Assembly (NCBI RefSeq): GCF_000012645.1
Contig: NC_007577.1
Location: 1,116,001 to 1,180,000 of the forward strand
Source: Prochlorococcus marinus str. MIT 9312
GTDB lineage: Bacteria > Cyanobacteriota > Cyanobacteriia > PCC-6307 > Cyanobiaceae
Reading direction: 5' to 3'
DNA: 64,000 nt
Both the position numbers and the translations under genes were made by a program. Below are positions 14,208 to 61,540 of the stretch, one piece after another. Within the stretch, counting starts at the first letter, position 1; each line of letters opens with the position of its first letter. The notes below the pieces were generated by a model. It worked only from the letters and a program-made list of their open reading frames with translations, did not search any database and was not told the DNA's origin.

Positions 14208-14342
14208 ATGATTGCTGCTTATTTTATTCTAAAAAATAATATCTGGGCACATTATACTTTTTTACTATATAAGGTTAAACAAGAAGCCCCTCCAGAAATT
14301 CCAACTACTGAAAGGGCTATTAAATTGACTCGTACTATATAA
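14208..14342 (+). CDS. 44-aa hypothetical protein
   Basis: ATG 14208 to TAA 14342: MIAAYFILKNNIWAHYTFLL, a hydrophobic start, then a polar tail with PPEIPTTERAIKL. No clear ribosome site. A rho-independent terminator follows 40 bases downstream, which supports a transcript here. Function unknown. Confidence 0.35.
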   Translation: MIAAYFILKNNIWAHYTFLLYKVKQEAPPEIPTTERAIKLTRTI

Positions 14343-14381
14343 AGTCAATCTATGTCTTGGAGTAAACGTAGAGCGTACTCA

Positions 14382-14406
14382 TTGAGGTTTGGCCTCAATT
14401 TATTTA
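14382..14406 (+). terminator. Rho-independent terminator
   Basis: Stem TTGAGG / CCTCAA with loop TTTGG, followed by TTTATTTAT, in plus orientation. It ends the tiny-gene unit at 13553-14342. The remaining sequence to 14625 shows no gene. Confidence 0.6.
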
Positions 14407-18816: not shown

Positions 18817-19004
18817 GGTATTTTGCAGTTAATGAGAATCCCGTTCCCTACTCCCATATCATGCGTCCAGAAATATAAACTTGGATGAACGTTATTGAAG
18901 GATAACATTTCCAAAAAAATTCCGCGAGAGTACTTTTTACTAATTTTTCTCAAGAAAATAAATATTGAATGAATTTGATAAAAAAGCTTTTAATATTACA
19001 TAAA

Positions 19005-29577: not shown

Positions 29578-29596
29578 ATGAGAAAAATTATATATT

Positions 29597-29640
29597 AAAA
29601 AAAAAAAAAAGAGATTGTTTCTTAGCTGAAAACAATCTCT
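29597..29640 (-). terminator. Strong minus-strand terminator
   Basis: Minus strand: AGAGATTGTTT, loop, AAACAATCTCT (11-base perfect stem), followed by a run of about 14 T. It ends the small membrane protein transcript coming from 29762-30640. Confidence 0.85.
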
Positions 29641-29724
29641 AGATTACCTAATTCTTACATGAAAATTTCAAGTAAGCTATTAGATTCTAACTGATTTATT
29701 TTTATAGTAAATACGTAAAAATGC

Positions 29725-51824: not shown

Positions 51825-52901
51825 ATGACGATCGCAGTTGGTAGCGCCCCACAAAGAGGATGGTTTGATGTCCTCGATGATTGGTTGAAGCGCGACCGCT
51901 TTGTATTTATTGGTTGGTCCGGACTACTACTTCTTCCTTGTGCATATCTTGCTATAGGTGGTTGGTTCGTCGGAACAACATTTGTTACCTCATGGTACAC
52001 ACATGGAGTTGCAAGCTCATACCTTGAAGGTTGTAACTTTTTAACAGCAGCTGTTAGTACCCCTGGTGATGCCATGGGACACAGTCTTCTATTTTTATGG
52101 GGTCCTGAAGCCCAAGGTAGTTTCGTTAGATGGCTACAACTTGGTGGTCTTTGGAACTTTGTCGCATTACATGGAGTATTTGGCCTTATTGGTTTTATGC
52201 TTCGTCAGTTTGAAATTGCTGGCCTTGTTGGAATAAGACCATACAACGCATTAGCTTTCTCAGCAGTAATTGCAGTTTTCACAAGTATTTTCCTTATTTA
52301 TCCCTTAGGACAGCATAGTTGGTTCTTCGCACCTTCATTTGGTGTTGCAGCAATCTTCCGTTATATTCTGTTCATTCAAGGTTTTCATAATATTACTTTA
52401 AATCCCTTCCACATGATGGGAGTAGCTGGAATTCTTGGTGGTGCTCTACTTTGCGCTATTCATGGAGCTACAGTACAAAATACTTTGTATGAAGATACAA
52501 GTATTTACACAGATGGTAAGGTTCAAAGTTCAACATTTAGAGCTTTTGACCCTACACAAGAAGAAGAAACTTATTCAATGATTACGGCGAATAGATTCTG
52601 GAGTCAAATCTTCGGTATCGCTTTCTCAAACAAGCGTTTCTTACACTTCTTGATGCTTTTTGTACCTGTTATGGGTATGTGGACATCTTCAATTGGTATA
52701 GTCGGCTTAGCACTAAACCTAAGGGCTTATGATTTCGTAAGCCAAGAGATACGTGCTGCAGAAGATCCTGAATTTGAAACTTTCTATACAAAAAATATAC
52801 TTTTGAACGAAGGTATGCGAGCATGGATGTCTTCTGTGGATCAACCACACGAAAATTTTGTATTCCCTGAGGAGGTTCTTCCACGTGGAAACGCCCTTTA
52901 A
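51825..52901 (+). CDS. psbD: Photosystem II D2 protein
   Basis: 358 residues from ATG 51825: [20 protein letters not shown], five membrane helices, [20 protein letters not shown] with ligand residues and [20 protein letters not shown]. Ends [10 protein letters not shown]. Heart of photosystem II, binding P680 chlorophylls, pheophytin and QA. A TTG frame extension upstream (51783) is not used. It overlaps psbC by 17 bases. Confidence 0.98.
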
Positions 52902-54267
52902 TAATTTATTAAGAGCTCCAAACCAAAGTATTGAAGAGACTGGTTATGCCTGGTATGTAGGTAACGCTAGACTAATCAATTTATCTGGACGTTTATTAGG
53001 AGCTCACATCGCTCACGCTGGACTTATAGTCTTCTGGGCAGGAGCAATGATGCTTTTTGAGGTTAATCATTTTACTTTTGATAAACCAATGTGGGAGCAA
53101 GGTCTAATTTGTATGCCACACGTAGCAATGTTTGGTTATGGAATAGGACCTGGTGGTGAAGTTACTGATATCATGCCTTTCTTTCAGGCTGGCGTGGTTC
53201 ATTTAATAGCTTCTGCAGTGCTTGGCTTTGGTGGAATTTACCATTCATTAGCGGGTCCCGAGAAGCTTGAAGAAGCTTTCCCATTCTTCTCTACTGACTG
53301 GAGAGATAAAAATCAAATGACCAATATTCTTGGTTATCATTTGTGTGTTCTTGGTGTAGGTGCATTAGCATGGACTGTGAACTGGTGTTTCATTGGTGGT
53401 GCTTATGATACTTGGGCACCTGGTGGTGGTGAAGTCAGATTAGTCAATCCAACATTAGATCCAAGGGTTATTCTTGGTTATCTATTTAGATCTCCATGGG
53501 GAGGCGCTGGTTCTATAATCGGTGTTAACTCAATTGAAGATATTGTTGGTGGACATGTCTATGTGGGTGTAACTGCAATTATTGGAGGAATATTCCACAT
53601 TTTTACCAAACCTTTTGGATGGGCTAGAAGAGCATTCATCTGGAACGGTGAAGGTCTATTAAGTTACGCTCTTGGTGGAATTTGTGTAGCAAGTTTTATT
53701 GCATCAACATTCATCTGGTTTAACAATACTGCTTACCCATCTGAGTTCTATGGCCCTACAAACGCCGAAGCTTCACAGGCCCAAAGCTTTACTTTCCTAG
53801 TGAGAGATCAAAGAATTGGAGCTAATGTAGGTACAACAATGGGACCAACAGGTTTAGGTAAGTATCTCATGAGATCTCCTACAGGTGAAATTATATTTGG
53901 TGGTGAAACAATGAGATTTTGGGATTTCAGAGGTCCATGGTTAGAGCCTTTAAGAGGGCCAAACGGATTGAGCCTTGAGAAAATCCAAAATGATATTCAG
54001 CCTTGGCAAGTCAGAAGAGCTGCTGAATATATGACTCATGCTCCTAATGCTTCTATCAACTCTGTTGGTGGAATCATTACTGAGCCTAATGCTGTTAACT
54101 TCGTTAATTTAAGACAATGGTTAGCTGCAGCTCAATTCTTCCTAGGATGGTTTACATTCATCGGTCATCTTTGGCATGCAGGACGTGCTAGAGCTGCCGC
54201 TGCTGGTTTCGAAAAAGGAATCGACAGAAAGAGTGAACCAGCTCTAGAAATGCCAGATTTAGATTAA
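52885..54267 (+). CDS. psbC: Photosystem II CP43 protein
   Basis: 460 residues from GTG 52885, with ribosome site GAGGAGG nine bases upstream inside psb[13 protein letters not shown], six membrane helices with many His ([20 protein letters not shown]), the lumenal loop [20 protein letters not shown] with the Arg near the manganese cluster, and [20 protein letters not shown] at the end. The inner antenna of photosystem II. The 17-base overlap with psbD is standard for cyanobacteria and chloroplasts. Confidence 0.98.
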
Positions 54268-57248: not shown

Positions 57249-57340
57249 AAAAAAAAAAGGCCCCTATTTTTAGAGGCCTTTTTCTGGTTTTACCTAACCA
57301 AGTGTTTCCTTGTTCCCACTGCTTGAGTAAAACCACTCCT
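57249..57340 (-). ncRNA. yfr2: Yfr2-family RNA (cyano-1 type)
   Basis: Minus strand: stem GGTTTTAC / GTAAAACC (57334-57327 with 57293-57286) encloses a loop with GGGAACAAGGAAACACTTGG, the GGAAACA-bearing core of the Yfr2-5 family. A terminator follows (AAGGCCTCT, loop, AGGGGCCTT, then ten T). Total length about 90 bases, as expected for these abundant cyanobacterial RNAs. Target unknown here. An inverted copy of AGGAAACACTT lies at 57202-57212. Confidence 0.8.
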
Positions 57341-57446
57341 TCACACTTGTTTAAAATATTCCATATATTTCATTTCCGTGGAAGGGGCGCATGGAATGTT
57401 ACGTAACTGTCACATGTAGCAGTTATGTATTAAAGGATTTATGGCA

Positions 57447-57516
57447 ATAAAAAACACCCTAATTTAGAGAAAAGGGTGTTTAATTATCAGAAATTAGTGT
57501 GTGAGGAGTTTCTGAT
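57447..57516 (-). ncRNA. yfr1: Yfr1 small RNA
   Basis: Minus strand: ATCAGAAA and TTTCTGAT bracket the invariant single-stranded motif ACTCCTCACAC (57509-57499). The 3' terminator AACACCCT, loop, AGGGTGTT, TTTTTT (57480-57448) follows. This is the defining layout of Yfr1, which base-pairs with mRNAs of outer-membrane proteins. A TTATAT box just upstream (about 57517-57523) is a fitting -10 element. Confidence 0.92.
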
Positions 57517-57900: not shown

Positions 57901-58932
57901 TTAATCCCAACCTGCATCTTTCATCAATTTTATTGCTATAGAATTTTTTGCCCCAAGGTCTTCTATAGTTACCTTATCAGGAATAAATTCTCCAAAGTCT
58001 TTGACAATTGGATTTTGATTAACCTCTTTTAATGGATGTTCAAAAGTTGGAGCAGCAAGGCCATTGCTTCCCTTTGGAGATGCCAAATATTCAAGGAGCT
58101 TAATAGCTTCATTTTTGTTTGTAGCGTATTTAGCTACACCACCAGCACTAATATTTAAATGTGCCGGATTAGGTGTGAGGACAGTTGTTCGTTTTGCATA
58201 TAAAGCATCTCTTCTTCCATTTACACCAGCTAGCATTCTTGCAACATAGTAATGATTTACAATACCAACACCACACTTTCTTTTAGAAACTGCTCTTACT
58301 ATAGAAATATCTCCCGGGAAAAATGGTTGTGATACATTTGAAATCATCCCGTTAAGCCAATTTTTTGTGTCCTCTTCTCCCTTATTAATTATTTGATTCG
58401 CAACCAAAGATTGATTATAGGGACTTTTTCTATTCCTCAGACATACTTTTCCTTTTAAAGAAGGGTCGGCCAAATCAGTGTAATCATTAATCTTACTTAC
58501 ATCTACCACCTTTGGATTTGCGACCATAACTCTAACTCTTCTCGTTAATGCGTACCATTCCTTATTAGGATCTTTTAATCCAATAGGAACATCATTTTCT
58601 AAAGTGGGAGAATCAATTTTTTGTAGCAATCCTAATTTTGCAGCATTAGTAATTCTTGCCGCATCAACAAGCAAAATTAGATCGGCTTGAGAATTTTTTC
58701 CCTCTCGTTTTAACCTTTCGATTAAGGAGATACCAGCAGCTTCGATTAGTCTGACTTTTATACCAGTTTCCTCTGCAAATTTTTTATAAACACTTCTATC
58801 TGTGTTGTAATGTCTCCCTGAATAAACTTTGACTTCTTTTTCTGTCGAATTTGCAGGTATATTTAAATTAAATAAAAAGGAACAAGTCAAAGCTGAATAA
58901 AATATTTTTTTTAGGTTTTGCAATTTTTTCAA
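57901..58932 (-). CDS. futA: Iron(III) ABC transporter substrate-binding protein
   Basis: 343 residues from TTG 58932. A signal peptide (LKKIFYSALTCSFLFNLNIP) precedes EVKVYSGRHYNTDRSVYKKF, then ADLILLVDAARITNAAKLGL and KCGVGIVNHYYVARMLAGVN. The His/Tyr pair (SGRHY) and the Tyr pair (NHYYVAR) are the iron ligands of FutA/IdiA. It captures ferric iron in the periplasm. Divergent from the PiuC-like gene, so a shared iron-responsive promoter is likely (58933-59025). Confidence 0.93.
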   Translation of the reverse strand: MKKLQNLKKIFYSALTCSFLFNLNIPANSTEKEVKVYSGRHYNTDRSVYKKFAEETGIKVRLIEAAGISLIERLKREGKNSQADLILLVDAARITNAAKLGLLQKIDSPTLENDVPIGLKDPNKEWYALTRRVRVMVANPKVVDVSKINDYTDLADPSLKGKVCLRNRKSPYNQSLVANQIINKGEEDTKNWLNGMISNVSQPFFPGDISIVRAVSKRKCGVGIVNHYYVARMLAGVNGRRDALYAKRTTVLTPNPAHLNISAGGVAKYATNKNEAIKLLEYLASPKGSNGLAAPTFEHPLKEVNQNPIVKDFGEFIPDKVTIEDLGAKNSIAIKLMKDAGWD

Positions 58933-59025
58933 ATAGTATCTATGGTTACTTTATATATATTAAAAGAACAAGAATCCTAAAAGATATTTTCTATACACCA
59001 CCTTGTATCATTTTTTATAATCAAA

Positions 59026-59691
59026 ATGAATTTTTTAACTAACCAGCTTCTCATTCAAGAAGAAATAGAAGCATTAATTAAAAATTTAAACAAAGAAAAT
59101 ACTCTCTGGGAAGATGGAAAAAAAACTGCCGGCAGTCACGCCTCAATGGTAAAAAATAATTTGCAATTAAATAGAGAATCCGAAATATCTAAAAAACTCT
59201 CCCATTTAATCAAAAAGAAAATTCTTTCCAGCCCTCTAATAAAAAGCTTTGCCTTACCAAAAATAATTCATGGAATAATGTTTACGAAATCATTAAAAGA
59301 TATGCAATACGGTAGGCATATTGATAATCCATTTATGTCATCAGGACGTGCTGATTTATCTTTTACCATTTCTTTAACTGATAAAAATACATACGATGGG
59401 GGAGAACTCATTATTGAAGAGATGAATTCAGAAAAAGAATTCAAACTAAATGCAGGTGAGATAATTATTTATCCTAGTACTTACTTACATTCAGTTAAAG
59501 AGATTAAAAATGGAGAAAGATTAGTATGTGTAGGTTGGATTGAAAGTTATGTAAAATCAATCGAACAAAGAGAATATTTATTTGATCTGGATGCAGGTGC
59601 AAAAGGCTTATTAGCTAAAAATGGGAGGTCAGATGAATTGGATCTTATTTTCAAGTCTTATTCAAATCTTCTTAGGCTACTTGGTAACTAA
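59026..59691 (+). CDS. piuC: PKHD-type Fe(II)/2-oxoglutarate dioxygenase, PiuC-like
   Basis: 221 residues. The metal triad appears as HxD in DMQYGRHIDNPFM and His in IIIYPSTYLHSVKEI; the 2-oxoglutarate Arg is in GERLVCVGWIESYV. PLIKSFALPKIIHGIMFTKS and RADLSFTISLTDKNTYDGGE complete the YbiX/PiuC pattern. These enzymes are linked to iron-limited growth. It faces futA. Confidence 0.9.
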   Translation: MNFLTNQLLIQEEIEALIKNLNKENTLWEDGKKTAGSHASMVKNNLQLNRESEISKKLSHLIKKKILSSPLIKSFALPKIIHGIMFTKSLKDMQYGRHIDNPFMSSGRADLSFTISLTDKNTYDGGELIIEEMNSEKEFKLNAGEIIIYPSTYLHSVKEIKNGERLVCVGWIESYVKSIEQREYLFDLDAGAKGLLAKNGRSDELDLIFKSYSNLLRLLGN

Positions 59692-60074: not shown

Positions 60075-61388
60075 TTAGAACTTGAACGCTGTTGTTACAA
60101 CTGCTCCAAAAGTATCATCATCTGCTTGGAAAGAATCAGACCCGCCAAAGATTGCAGGAGTTATTGTCACAGAATCATTTTGTTTCCATGAATAATATAC
60201 TTCCCACAATAGTGGATCAACTTCATTAGTATCACCTCCGCCAGCAATAGAAGTAGCCTTTAATGGTTGAGTAAATGCAATTCCAATTCTGTCATCTGGC
60301 TGACGAATATCTTTCCAAGTCAACCCAACCATCCAGCTATCTGCCTCATCAACAGTTCCGGCAGCAGCATCATCCCAGACCTTTGTATCGTAACCAACAG
60401 AAATTTCAGGCATTGCAGTACCTGTTTCTTCTGGCATCCAATATGCTCTTGCGGCATATCCCATCGAATCTGTCGCGGTATTCTCACCTAATGCTGTTGC
60501 ATTATAAAGCTGAGATGTCCAGTTCTGAGCATTTGAAACAGTTAAAGATAAGTGATACCTAGGCTGGGTATATGCAATTTGAGTATCCCATTTGCTAACT
60601 GAATCGTCTTGGAAGAAACCACTATTGGCTGCATCAGCGTTTTTATCAACAACGTTCGATGCTATAGCAAAACCGTTATCGGCTTCATATTTTAAACCAA
60701 AACCAACGTCGGTACTAGCTCCAAAGTTACTATTTCCACCTAACTTAAAGGCTTTTAAAGCACCTGGTTTATAAATAGATGGAGTTACATACATGTAGTA
60801 GTTCTCAATCCTAGGACCTGCGAAAGCAGTAATGTTATCTCCTATAGGGAATGTATACCAAATCTTATCAACCCTAAATTCATCATTTGTATCTTTGGTA
60901 TGGATATGGTAACCAGCTGGTTTAGATGACCAAGCCCCACCATTTTCTCCAGCTTTTAAACGTACATAGAGGTTATCATCACCTGTAAAACTTGTATTTA
61001 AGTTCATTGTGTAGGTATAACCTGTCTGAACCGAATCAGATGGTTCATCTGTATTGAGACCATCCTCATTGTCATCAACATCATTGATACCTTCTATTGC
61101 ACCAATCCAAAAGATCGCCTTACCATCCATGGATGTTGTAGAAGAGAAAGCGCCTGCTTCAAAATCATTTTGTTTAGACTCAAGGCCATCAATACGGCCG
61201 TTTAGAGTTGCAATATCTTCACTAACTTCGTTAATGAATGTATTACTGTCAAGTTTTGAAGATTTTTTTTGGCTACGTCCGTAGCTATTCATTTCTTCTA
61301 AATTGACTACATCGGAAGCTTGAGCAGCAATTGGAGCTAATAAGCTCAAAGATGCCCCTGCCACCAACATTTGTTGGAAGAGTTTCAT
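60075..61388 (-). CDS. som: Outer-membrane porin (Som/OprB-like)
   Basis: 437 residues. Signal peptide MKLFQQMLVAGASLSLLAPI ending AQAS, then a helical stalk (VSEDIATLNGRIDGLESKQN) where larger porins have an SLH domain, then alternating beta strands to the C-terminal AVVTTAFKF with terminal Phe. It forms the main diffusion pore. GAGG lies just upstream of ATG 61388. Confidence 0.88.
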   Translation of the reverse strand: MKLFQQMLVAGASLSLLAPIAAQASDVVNLEEMNSYGRSQKKSSKLDSNTFINEVSEDIATLNGRIDGLESKQNDFEAGAFSSTTSMDGKAIFWIGAIEGINDVDDNEDGLNTDEPSDSVQTGYTYTMNLNTSFTGDDNLYVRLKAGENGGAWSSKPAGYHIHTKDTNDEFRVDKIWYTFPIGDNITAFAGPRIENYYMYVTPSIYKPGALKAFKLGGNSNFGASTDVGFGLKYEADNGFAIASNVVDKNADAANSGFFQDDSVSKWDTQIAYTQPRYHLSLTVSNAQNWTSQLYNATALGENTATDSMGYAARAYWMPEETGTAMPEISVGYDTKVWDDAAAGTVDEADSWMVGLTWKDIRQPDDRIGIAFTQPLKATSIAGGGDTNEVDPLLWEVYYSWKQNDSVTITPAIFGGSDSFQADDDTFGAVVTTAFKF

Positions 61389-61540
61389 TTTACCTCACAC
61401 TAAAGTAACCCAATAAAATGGGGTATACATACTGTATCTAAAGAAACAATCTTGAAATGATATAAAAGTTTCAAGGAGATGTAACCATTGATACTTTCCA
61501 TATATCAAGAATATTTGACATATCAATATTTTTTGATTTG

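Follow-up and report, generated by a model that had tools for sequence, protein, structure and literature searches.

A predicted target site for Yfr1/Yfr10-type sRNAs and a candidate 5′ hairpin in the leader of a SomB-type porin gene of Prochlorococcus marinus MIT 9312

In this study, a 64,000-nucleotide stretch of the Prochlorococcus marinus MIT 9312 genome (NC_007577.1, positions 1,116,001 to 1,180,000; hereafter the window) was analysed, in which a porin gene is preceded by a short leader and followed further downstream by two sRNA genes, all on the minus strand (Table 1). The porin matched NF033921 with 103.3 bits, barely above the cut-off of 100, and carries the NCBIfam label 'iron uptake porin'; a Pfam search with it returned no match. 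The adjoining region (57901-59691) is likewise iron-flavoured: an Fe2+-dependent dioxygenase (NF003974) is encoded there along with a solute-binding protein (PF13343). Elsewhere in the window, Rfam matches above gathering were found for a Glutamine-II riboswitch (18832-18894), Yfr13 (14299-14396) and Yfr19 (29596-29677, minus strand). A match to IsrR (53299-53482, minus strand, 141.8 bits) lies antisense to an ORF at 52858-54267 that resembles psbC by eye; this match is possibly due to the similarity between isiA and psbC and would then not mark a true IsrR gene.

Table 1. Features of the porin locus and of the nearby sRNA genes (window coordinates)
Feature	Position	Strand	Remarks
SomB-type porin ORF, 437 aa	60075..61388	-	NCBIfam NF033921 por_somb
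Predicted Yfr1/Yfr10-motif target site GTGTGAGG	61393..61400	-	Shine-Dalgarno GAGG inside; 4 nt to ATG
Predicted 5′-terminal hairpin ACCC..GGGU	61408..61424	-	Stem of only 4 bp in MIT 9312; +1 predicted
Putative -10 box TACAGT	61431..61436	-	Leader start defined 6 nt after
sRNA Yfr10 (RF02362)	57439..57516	-	104.1 bits, gathering 43
Motif ACTCCTCACACAC in predicted Yfr10 hairpin loop	57497-57509	-	Fold prediction
Cyano-1/Yfr2-family sRNA beside Yfr10	57281..57350	-	61.7 bits; predicted competitor for Yfr1/Yfr10 motif

The initial annotation had taken the RNA encoded 4 kb from the porin for Yfr1. Rfam covariance-model matches ruled this out: the neighbouring gene is matched by the Yfr10 model, and the Yfr1 model (RF01116) matches at about 980.2 kb of the genome instead, some 197 kb from the porin. 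A second Yfr10-type RNA was located at 952.2 kb, next to another Cyano-1 RNA. Exactly three genomic copies of the motif ACTCCTCACACAC were found (952.3, 980.2 and 1173.5 kb), the Yfr1 gene among them; since three RNAs carry it in identical form, the sequence does not name one of them as the regulator. The Cyano-1 family is one that we take to be Yfr2. This fits the description of Yfr10 in PMC2518516, where it adjoins Yfr2. Viral contigs were also scanned for ACTCCTCACACACT, and none of the 101 stretches found had Yfr10-like flanking arms of at least 7 bp.

Directly 5′ of the porin ATG (61386-61388), the minus strand reads TTTAGTGTGAGGTAAA, a 16-mer at 61389-61404. It contains GTGTGAGG, the perfect complement of CCUCACAC, so that 8 contiguous bp overlapping the translation start region can be formed; the exact complement of GTGTGAGG, CCTCACAC, is part of the motif ACTCCTCACACAC. 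The proposed complementarity of eight consecutive bases, including the Shine-Dalgarno (SD), to the Yfr1 motif is present, and the site does lie upstream of the porin ATG, with its position corrected by 2-3 bases from the 61386-61402 first assigned. In itself the 8-mer is only mildly enriched, as it occurs 15 times on both strands of the 1,709,204-bp genome, compared with 8 occurrences of the reversed control pattern. Three of these 15 copies are accounted for by the three sRNA genes with the motif, read on the opposite strand, and among the other 12, four sit 4-7 nt 5′ of porin start codons. SD-like words (GGAG, GAGG or AGGA between -16 and -4, with the first ATG taken as the gene start) precede 3 of the 42 window genes, the porin among them, which makes the fixed GAGG at the porin unusual here.

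By match, the genome encodes six porins, and the exact site is present in four, including the porin at 1414475 with an apparent TTG start. The fifth porin (672329) has GTGTTGAGG 5′ of its ATG, equal to the motif site plus one extra T, at which the energy script described below found no pairing; before the start of the sixth, no such site was found. In strain MED4, the som porins PMM1119 and PMM1121 are reported to be under Yfr1 control (Richter 2010; Lambrecht 2019, PMC6778093). Two MED4 porins (starts at 1066188 and 1069407), separated by a single gene, were taken as PMM1119 and PMM1121 from their order, their energies and the published position of Yfr21 near PMM1121 (PMC2518516). This pair resembles two directly adjacent porin genes of MIT 9312 (1045694 and 1046975), and from site type and pair order we infer that the two pairs correspond. 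The best-scoring MED4 match to the window porin, with 34% identity, was the PMM1121 locus, and the second match was partial; the search for orthology to PMM1119 or PMM1121 yielded no MED4 orthologue. With so distant a best match, the window porin is placed as a third paralogue; MED4 appears to be without it, and the gene would be a third candidate target beside PMM1119 and PMM1121.

Pairing energies were calculated with an IntaRNA-like script summing duplex energy and opening costs; unconstrained duplexfold energies were dropped, as they picked long artefactual duplexes, and this accessibility-limited script was used in their place. The window porin gave -10.1 (-10.5 with the predicted 36-nt leader), a value computed without the loop constraints of Yfr10 and equal for Yfr1 and the two Yfr10 copies. 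By the same script, the RNAs of MIT 9312 gave -11.0 with PMM1121 and -13.6 with PMM1119, near the IntaRNA values of -10.54 and -13.42 published for these targets (PMC3142192). Pairing comprises 8 bp at the window porin and is one bp longer at PMM1121 and two longer at PMM1119; the porin site is partly folded, with an opening cost of 4-4.6 kcal/mol. RNA pairing prediction, proposed as a check in the initial annotation, came out in its favour: with Yfr1 as with Yfr10, the porin ranked first among the 42 window genes, its energy being like that of the validated target PMM1121, and the next-best genes reached -6.2 (Yfr1) and -6.1 (Yfr10). None of 300 dinucleotide shuffles of the porin start region reached -10, the best being -8.0 and -7.8. 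The Yfr2 of the window gave -15.3 with Yfr1 and -14.5 with Yfr10, as against -10.1 for the porin, which agrees with the relief of Yfr1 repression by Yfr2 reported in PMC6778093.

Among the best 80 of 107 porin orthologues found (median protein identity to the query about 54%), GTGTGAGG was intact in 79; the exception reads GTGTGAGT, with the last G lost and no visible compensation. The hairpin loop, the linker and the 5′ portion of the leader varied across these orthologues. Within the genus, GTGTGAGGN3-10ATGAA stands before some gene in 84 of 87 genomes, and ACTCCTCACAC was found in all 87. Conservation on both sides, as looked for from the outset, was thus observed; since both are nearly invariant, covariation is unable to prove the pairing. 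In a sample of the family, the site precedes an ATG in 114 of 121 genomes and 31 of 34 genera, with 287 sites compared with 19 (counted by eye) for a reversed control. Nine of 12 family sites chosen by the tool precede porins and three do not, and 40 hand-picked sites from other genera, overlapping in part with these 12, all precede frames whose first residues resemble those of SomB porins; one of these frames ends after 52 codons. The Yfr1 targets predicted in work on Nostoc include a porin homologue (PMC6974561).

From these results, GTGTGAGG is very probably a selected target of the single-stranded motif ACUCCUCACAC of Yfr1/Yfr10-type RNAs, with the SD being blocked and Yfr2 bringing release. 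That the 8-mer is instead retained for its strength as a ribosome-binding site, or is a remnant of an old porin-family leader, and is not paired by any sRNA, we regard as distinctly improbable. The spacing of GAGG is indeed suitable, and high abundance is reported for a MED4 porin mRNA (PMC2897979), but GTGT 5′ of the SD varies no more than GAGG does, and SD-like words are as scarce among the window genes as described above. Inheritance would account for several paralogues being preceded by the same word; however, beyond the 8-mer common to them, the leaders of the different porin groups appear unrelated by eye, and two MED4 paralogues are published Yfr1 targets.

Direct repression by the neighbouring RNA had been proposed; of this proposal the pairing across the SD was upheld, and neither the identity of the RNA nor a conserved 4-kb neighbourhood was. 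Of the 71 orthologous loci with enough DNA, 2 have the motif in the 6 kb downstream of the porin, and none has it on the other strand within this distance. Because only these two loci share the arrangement, the closeness looks incidental; the 4-kb neighbourhood was rejected as meaningful, and the proximity of Yfr10 and porin is probably accidental. Yfr10 as a specific regulator acting locally on the window porin would suit two genes on the same strand, 3.9 kb apart, with an identical motif in the RNA, and Yfr10 increases in darkness in MED4 (PMC6778093). This reading is nevertheless rather improbable in view of the scarcity of the arrangement, the equal predicted energies of Yfr1 and both Yfr10 copies, and the MED4 pull-downs, which report PMM1121 and PMM1119 with Yfr1 (PMC6778093). 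A target open to any RNA of the Yfr1/Yfr10 type is the reading retained below.

Upstream of this site, one of the hexamers TACAGT, TACAAT, TAAAGT and TAAAAT was present in all 81 leaders, and setting the leader start 6 nt past it gave leaders of 33-39 nt. A stem of 4 bp or more can be formed within the first bases by each of the 65 distinct leaders, and one of 5 bp or more by 58, whereas dinucleotide shuffles gave means of 28 and 12, respectively. Exchange of arms between leaders, a register-free test whose statistic ignores relatedness, gave means of 57.8 and 41.5 and maxima of 61 and 48 in 200 exchanges. When the stem was held to fixed columns in an ungapped subset of 29 leaders, 82.8% of positions were paired compared with 81.7% after shuffling; three pairs had double changes, matched by 10 of 500 shuffles, and the covariation score was matched by 69 of 500. 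Fixed-column covariation is therefore weak, partly owing to a hairpin register that differs from leader to leader, and the arm exchange provides the stronger evidence.

In other genera, 37 of 40 leaders reached the hairpin score compared with 12.5 for shuffles, and their stems are diverse (GGCGC/GCGCC, GACTTC/GAAGTC, GAGAC/GTCTC). Between the best -10-like hexamer and the hairpin, a spacing of 6 nt was the commonest (18 of these 37), and the mean score of such hexamers also peaked there (5.38; reached in 0 of 500 position permutations). The hairpin seems to begin at +1, after the -10 box; we infer this 5′-terminal position because the start site was placed via that box. That the hairpin is a terminator of the upstream glyQ, or a DNA operator, appears unlikely. 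glyQ is co-directional and a U run follows the hairpin in several leaders, but the score peak at 6 nt speaks against both possibilities, many other-genus linkers are C/U mixtures and not U runs, and loops of 3 to 10 nt with widely different arm sequences are unlike a protein operator. A 5′-terminal RNA structure is thus the preferred reading, and its likeliest role would be protection of the 5′ end of the mRNA, by analogy to E. coli ompA. The alternative that the hairpin keeps the sRNA site open was rejected, the mean opening cost over 80 leaders being 2.35 kcal/mol with the hairpin and 2.34 kcal/mol without it. A narrow full-text literature search of incomplete coverage brought up no paper on the hairpin.

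A rule that required 4 bp, 3 GC pairs and TAnnnT 5-7 nt before the hairpin was passed by 72 of 81 leaders of the window-porin gene, 16 of 40 other-genus leaders and none of 41 other window genes. With the search widened from 70 to 100 nt upstream and 5 bp required, a single one of the 42 window genes passed; the porin, with its 4-bp stem, failed. The hairpin score was reached by 8 PMM1121-like leaders (n = 20) compared with 4.3 for shuffles, and by 5 PMM1119-like leaders (n = 20) compared with 4.95. None of either group passed the rule with 3 GC pairs; when only 2 GC pairs were required, 10 of 20 PMM1121-like leaders, 4 of 20 PMM1119-like leaders and 2 of 41 other window genes passed. With no clear excess in these two groups, a general occurrence of the hairpin in the porin leaders of the genus is doubtful. 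As a separate observation, 57 of 74 distinct orthologue upstream regions contain GTTAC-N4-GATAC (GT-N10-AC) at a position overlapping the -10 box, a count resting on the position of GTTAC; the window itself has GTTTC in that place. This sequence resembles an NtcA/CRP-type site.

The following mechanism can be proposed. Yfr1 or a Yfr10-type RNA would pair with 8 bp over the SD of the porin mRNA and so block ribosome entry, and Yfr2, encoded beside Yfr10, would bind the motif more strongly and release the porin; 5′ of the site, nearly all leaders of the porin gene would bear the small hairpin at the apparent +1. Occupancy and repression in the cell, the acting RNA and the transcription start are deduced here from sequence, and repression of the window porin is extrapolated from its published paralogues PMM1119 and PMM1121 (PMC6778093, PMC3142192). 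Yfr1 is reported to repress a PMM1121 5′UTR-GFP fusion 4.7-fold in E. coli, with restoration by Yfr2 (PMC6778093). The same report describes SD sequences as not enriched in Prochlorococcus and SD blocking as perhaps less established in cyanobacteria. The PMM1121 mRNA of MED4 is among the longest-lived, with half-lives of 28.6 min (array) and 13.0 min (qRT-PCR), and is abundant, with a high signal (PMC2897979); silencing, if any, should therefore be partial or conditional. A wider scheme, which we put forward tentatively and with slightly less than even confidence, is that many SomB porin mRNAs of Prochlorococcus and Synechococcus relatives have a two-part leader, in which a stem-loop at +1, kept in fold with its sequence replaced between lineages, is followed by the near-invariant Yfr1-motif site over the ribosome-binding site, and that the hairpin maintains a long-lived mRNA pool, which is silenced reversibly by Yfr1/Yfr10 and freed by Yfr2.

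Porins decide what enters these highly abundant ocean phototrophs, and protein regulators of porins are few. The control principle is known already. What this analysis adds is a third porin, a picture of how widely the site occurs among the sampled genera, and a candidate hairpin, which may be a second leader element beside the Yfr1-motif site. The data suggest that Yfr1-type control would span porins of most sampled genera of the family and not just two MED4 genes. The RNA near the porin is now correctly named Yfr10, and its closeness is probably due to chance.

Compared with PMM1119 and PMM1121, the window porin has the same motif at the same position over the SD, a related product and a similar energy; it differs in being another paralogue, in pairing over 8 and not 9-10 bp, and in its clearer upstream hairpin. 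The neighbouring RNA resembles Yfr10 as described by Steglich 2008 (PMC2518516) in having the motif in a hairpin loop and a Yfr2-family RNA adjacent. The start of MED4 Yfr10 was found at 346661, matching that report; at 346.7 kb it lies far from PMM1119 and PMM1121, whereas in MIT 9312 Yfr10 is near the porin. MED4 has been described as being without hfq (PMC10989914). For E. coli ompA, a stabilising 5′ untranslated region and pairing of MicA at the start site are reported (PMC7509114). Both systems concern mRNAs of outer-membrane proteins in which sRNA pairing over the ribosome site is combined with a hairpin close to the 5′ end, the two elements being predicted ones in the case of the porin. 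In ompA mRNA the 5′ element is a stem-loop. The sequences and the RNAs are unrelated, however, and stabilisation by the porin hairpin is putative; if true, the two-part porin leader would be analogous to the enterobacterial ompA/MicA system and yet have evolved apart from it.
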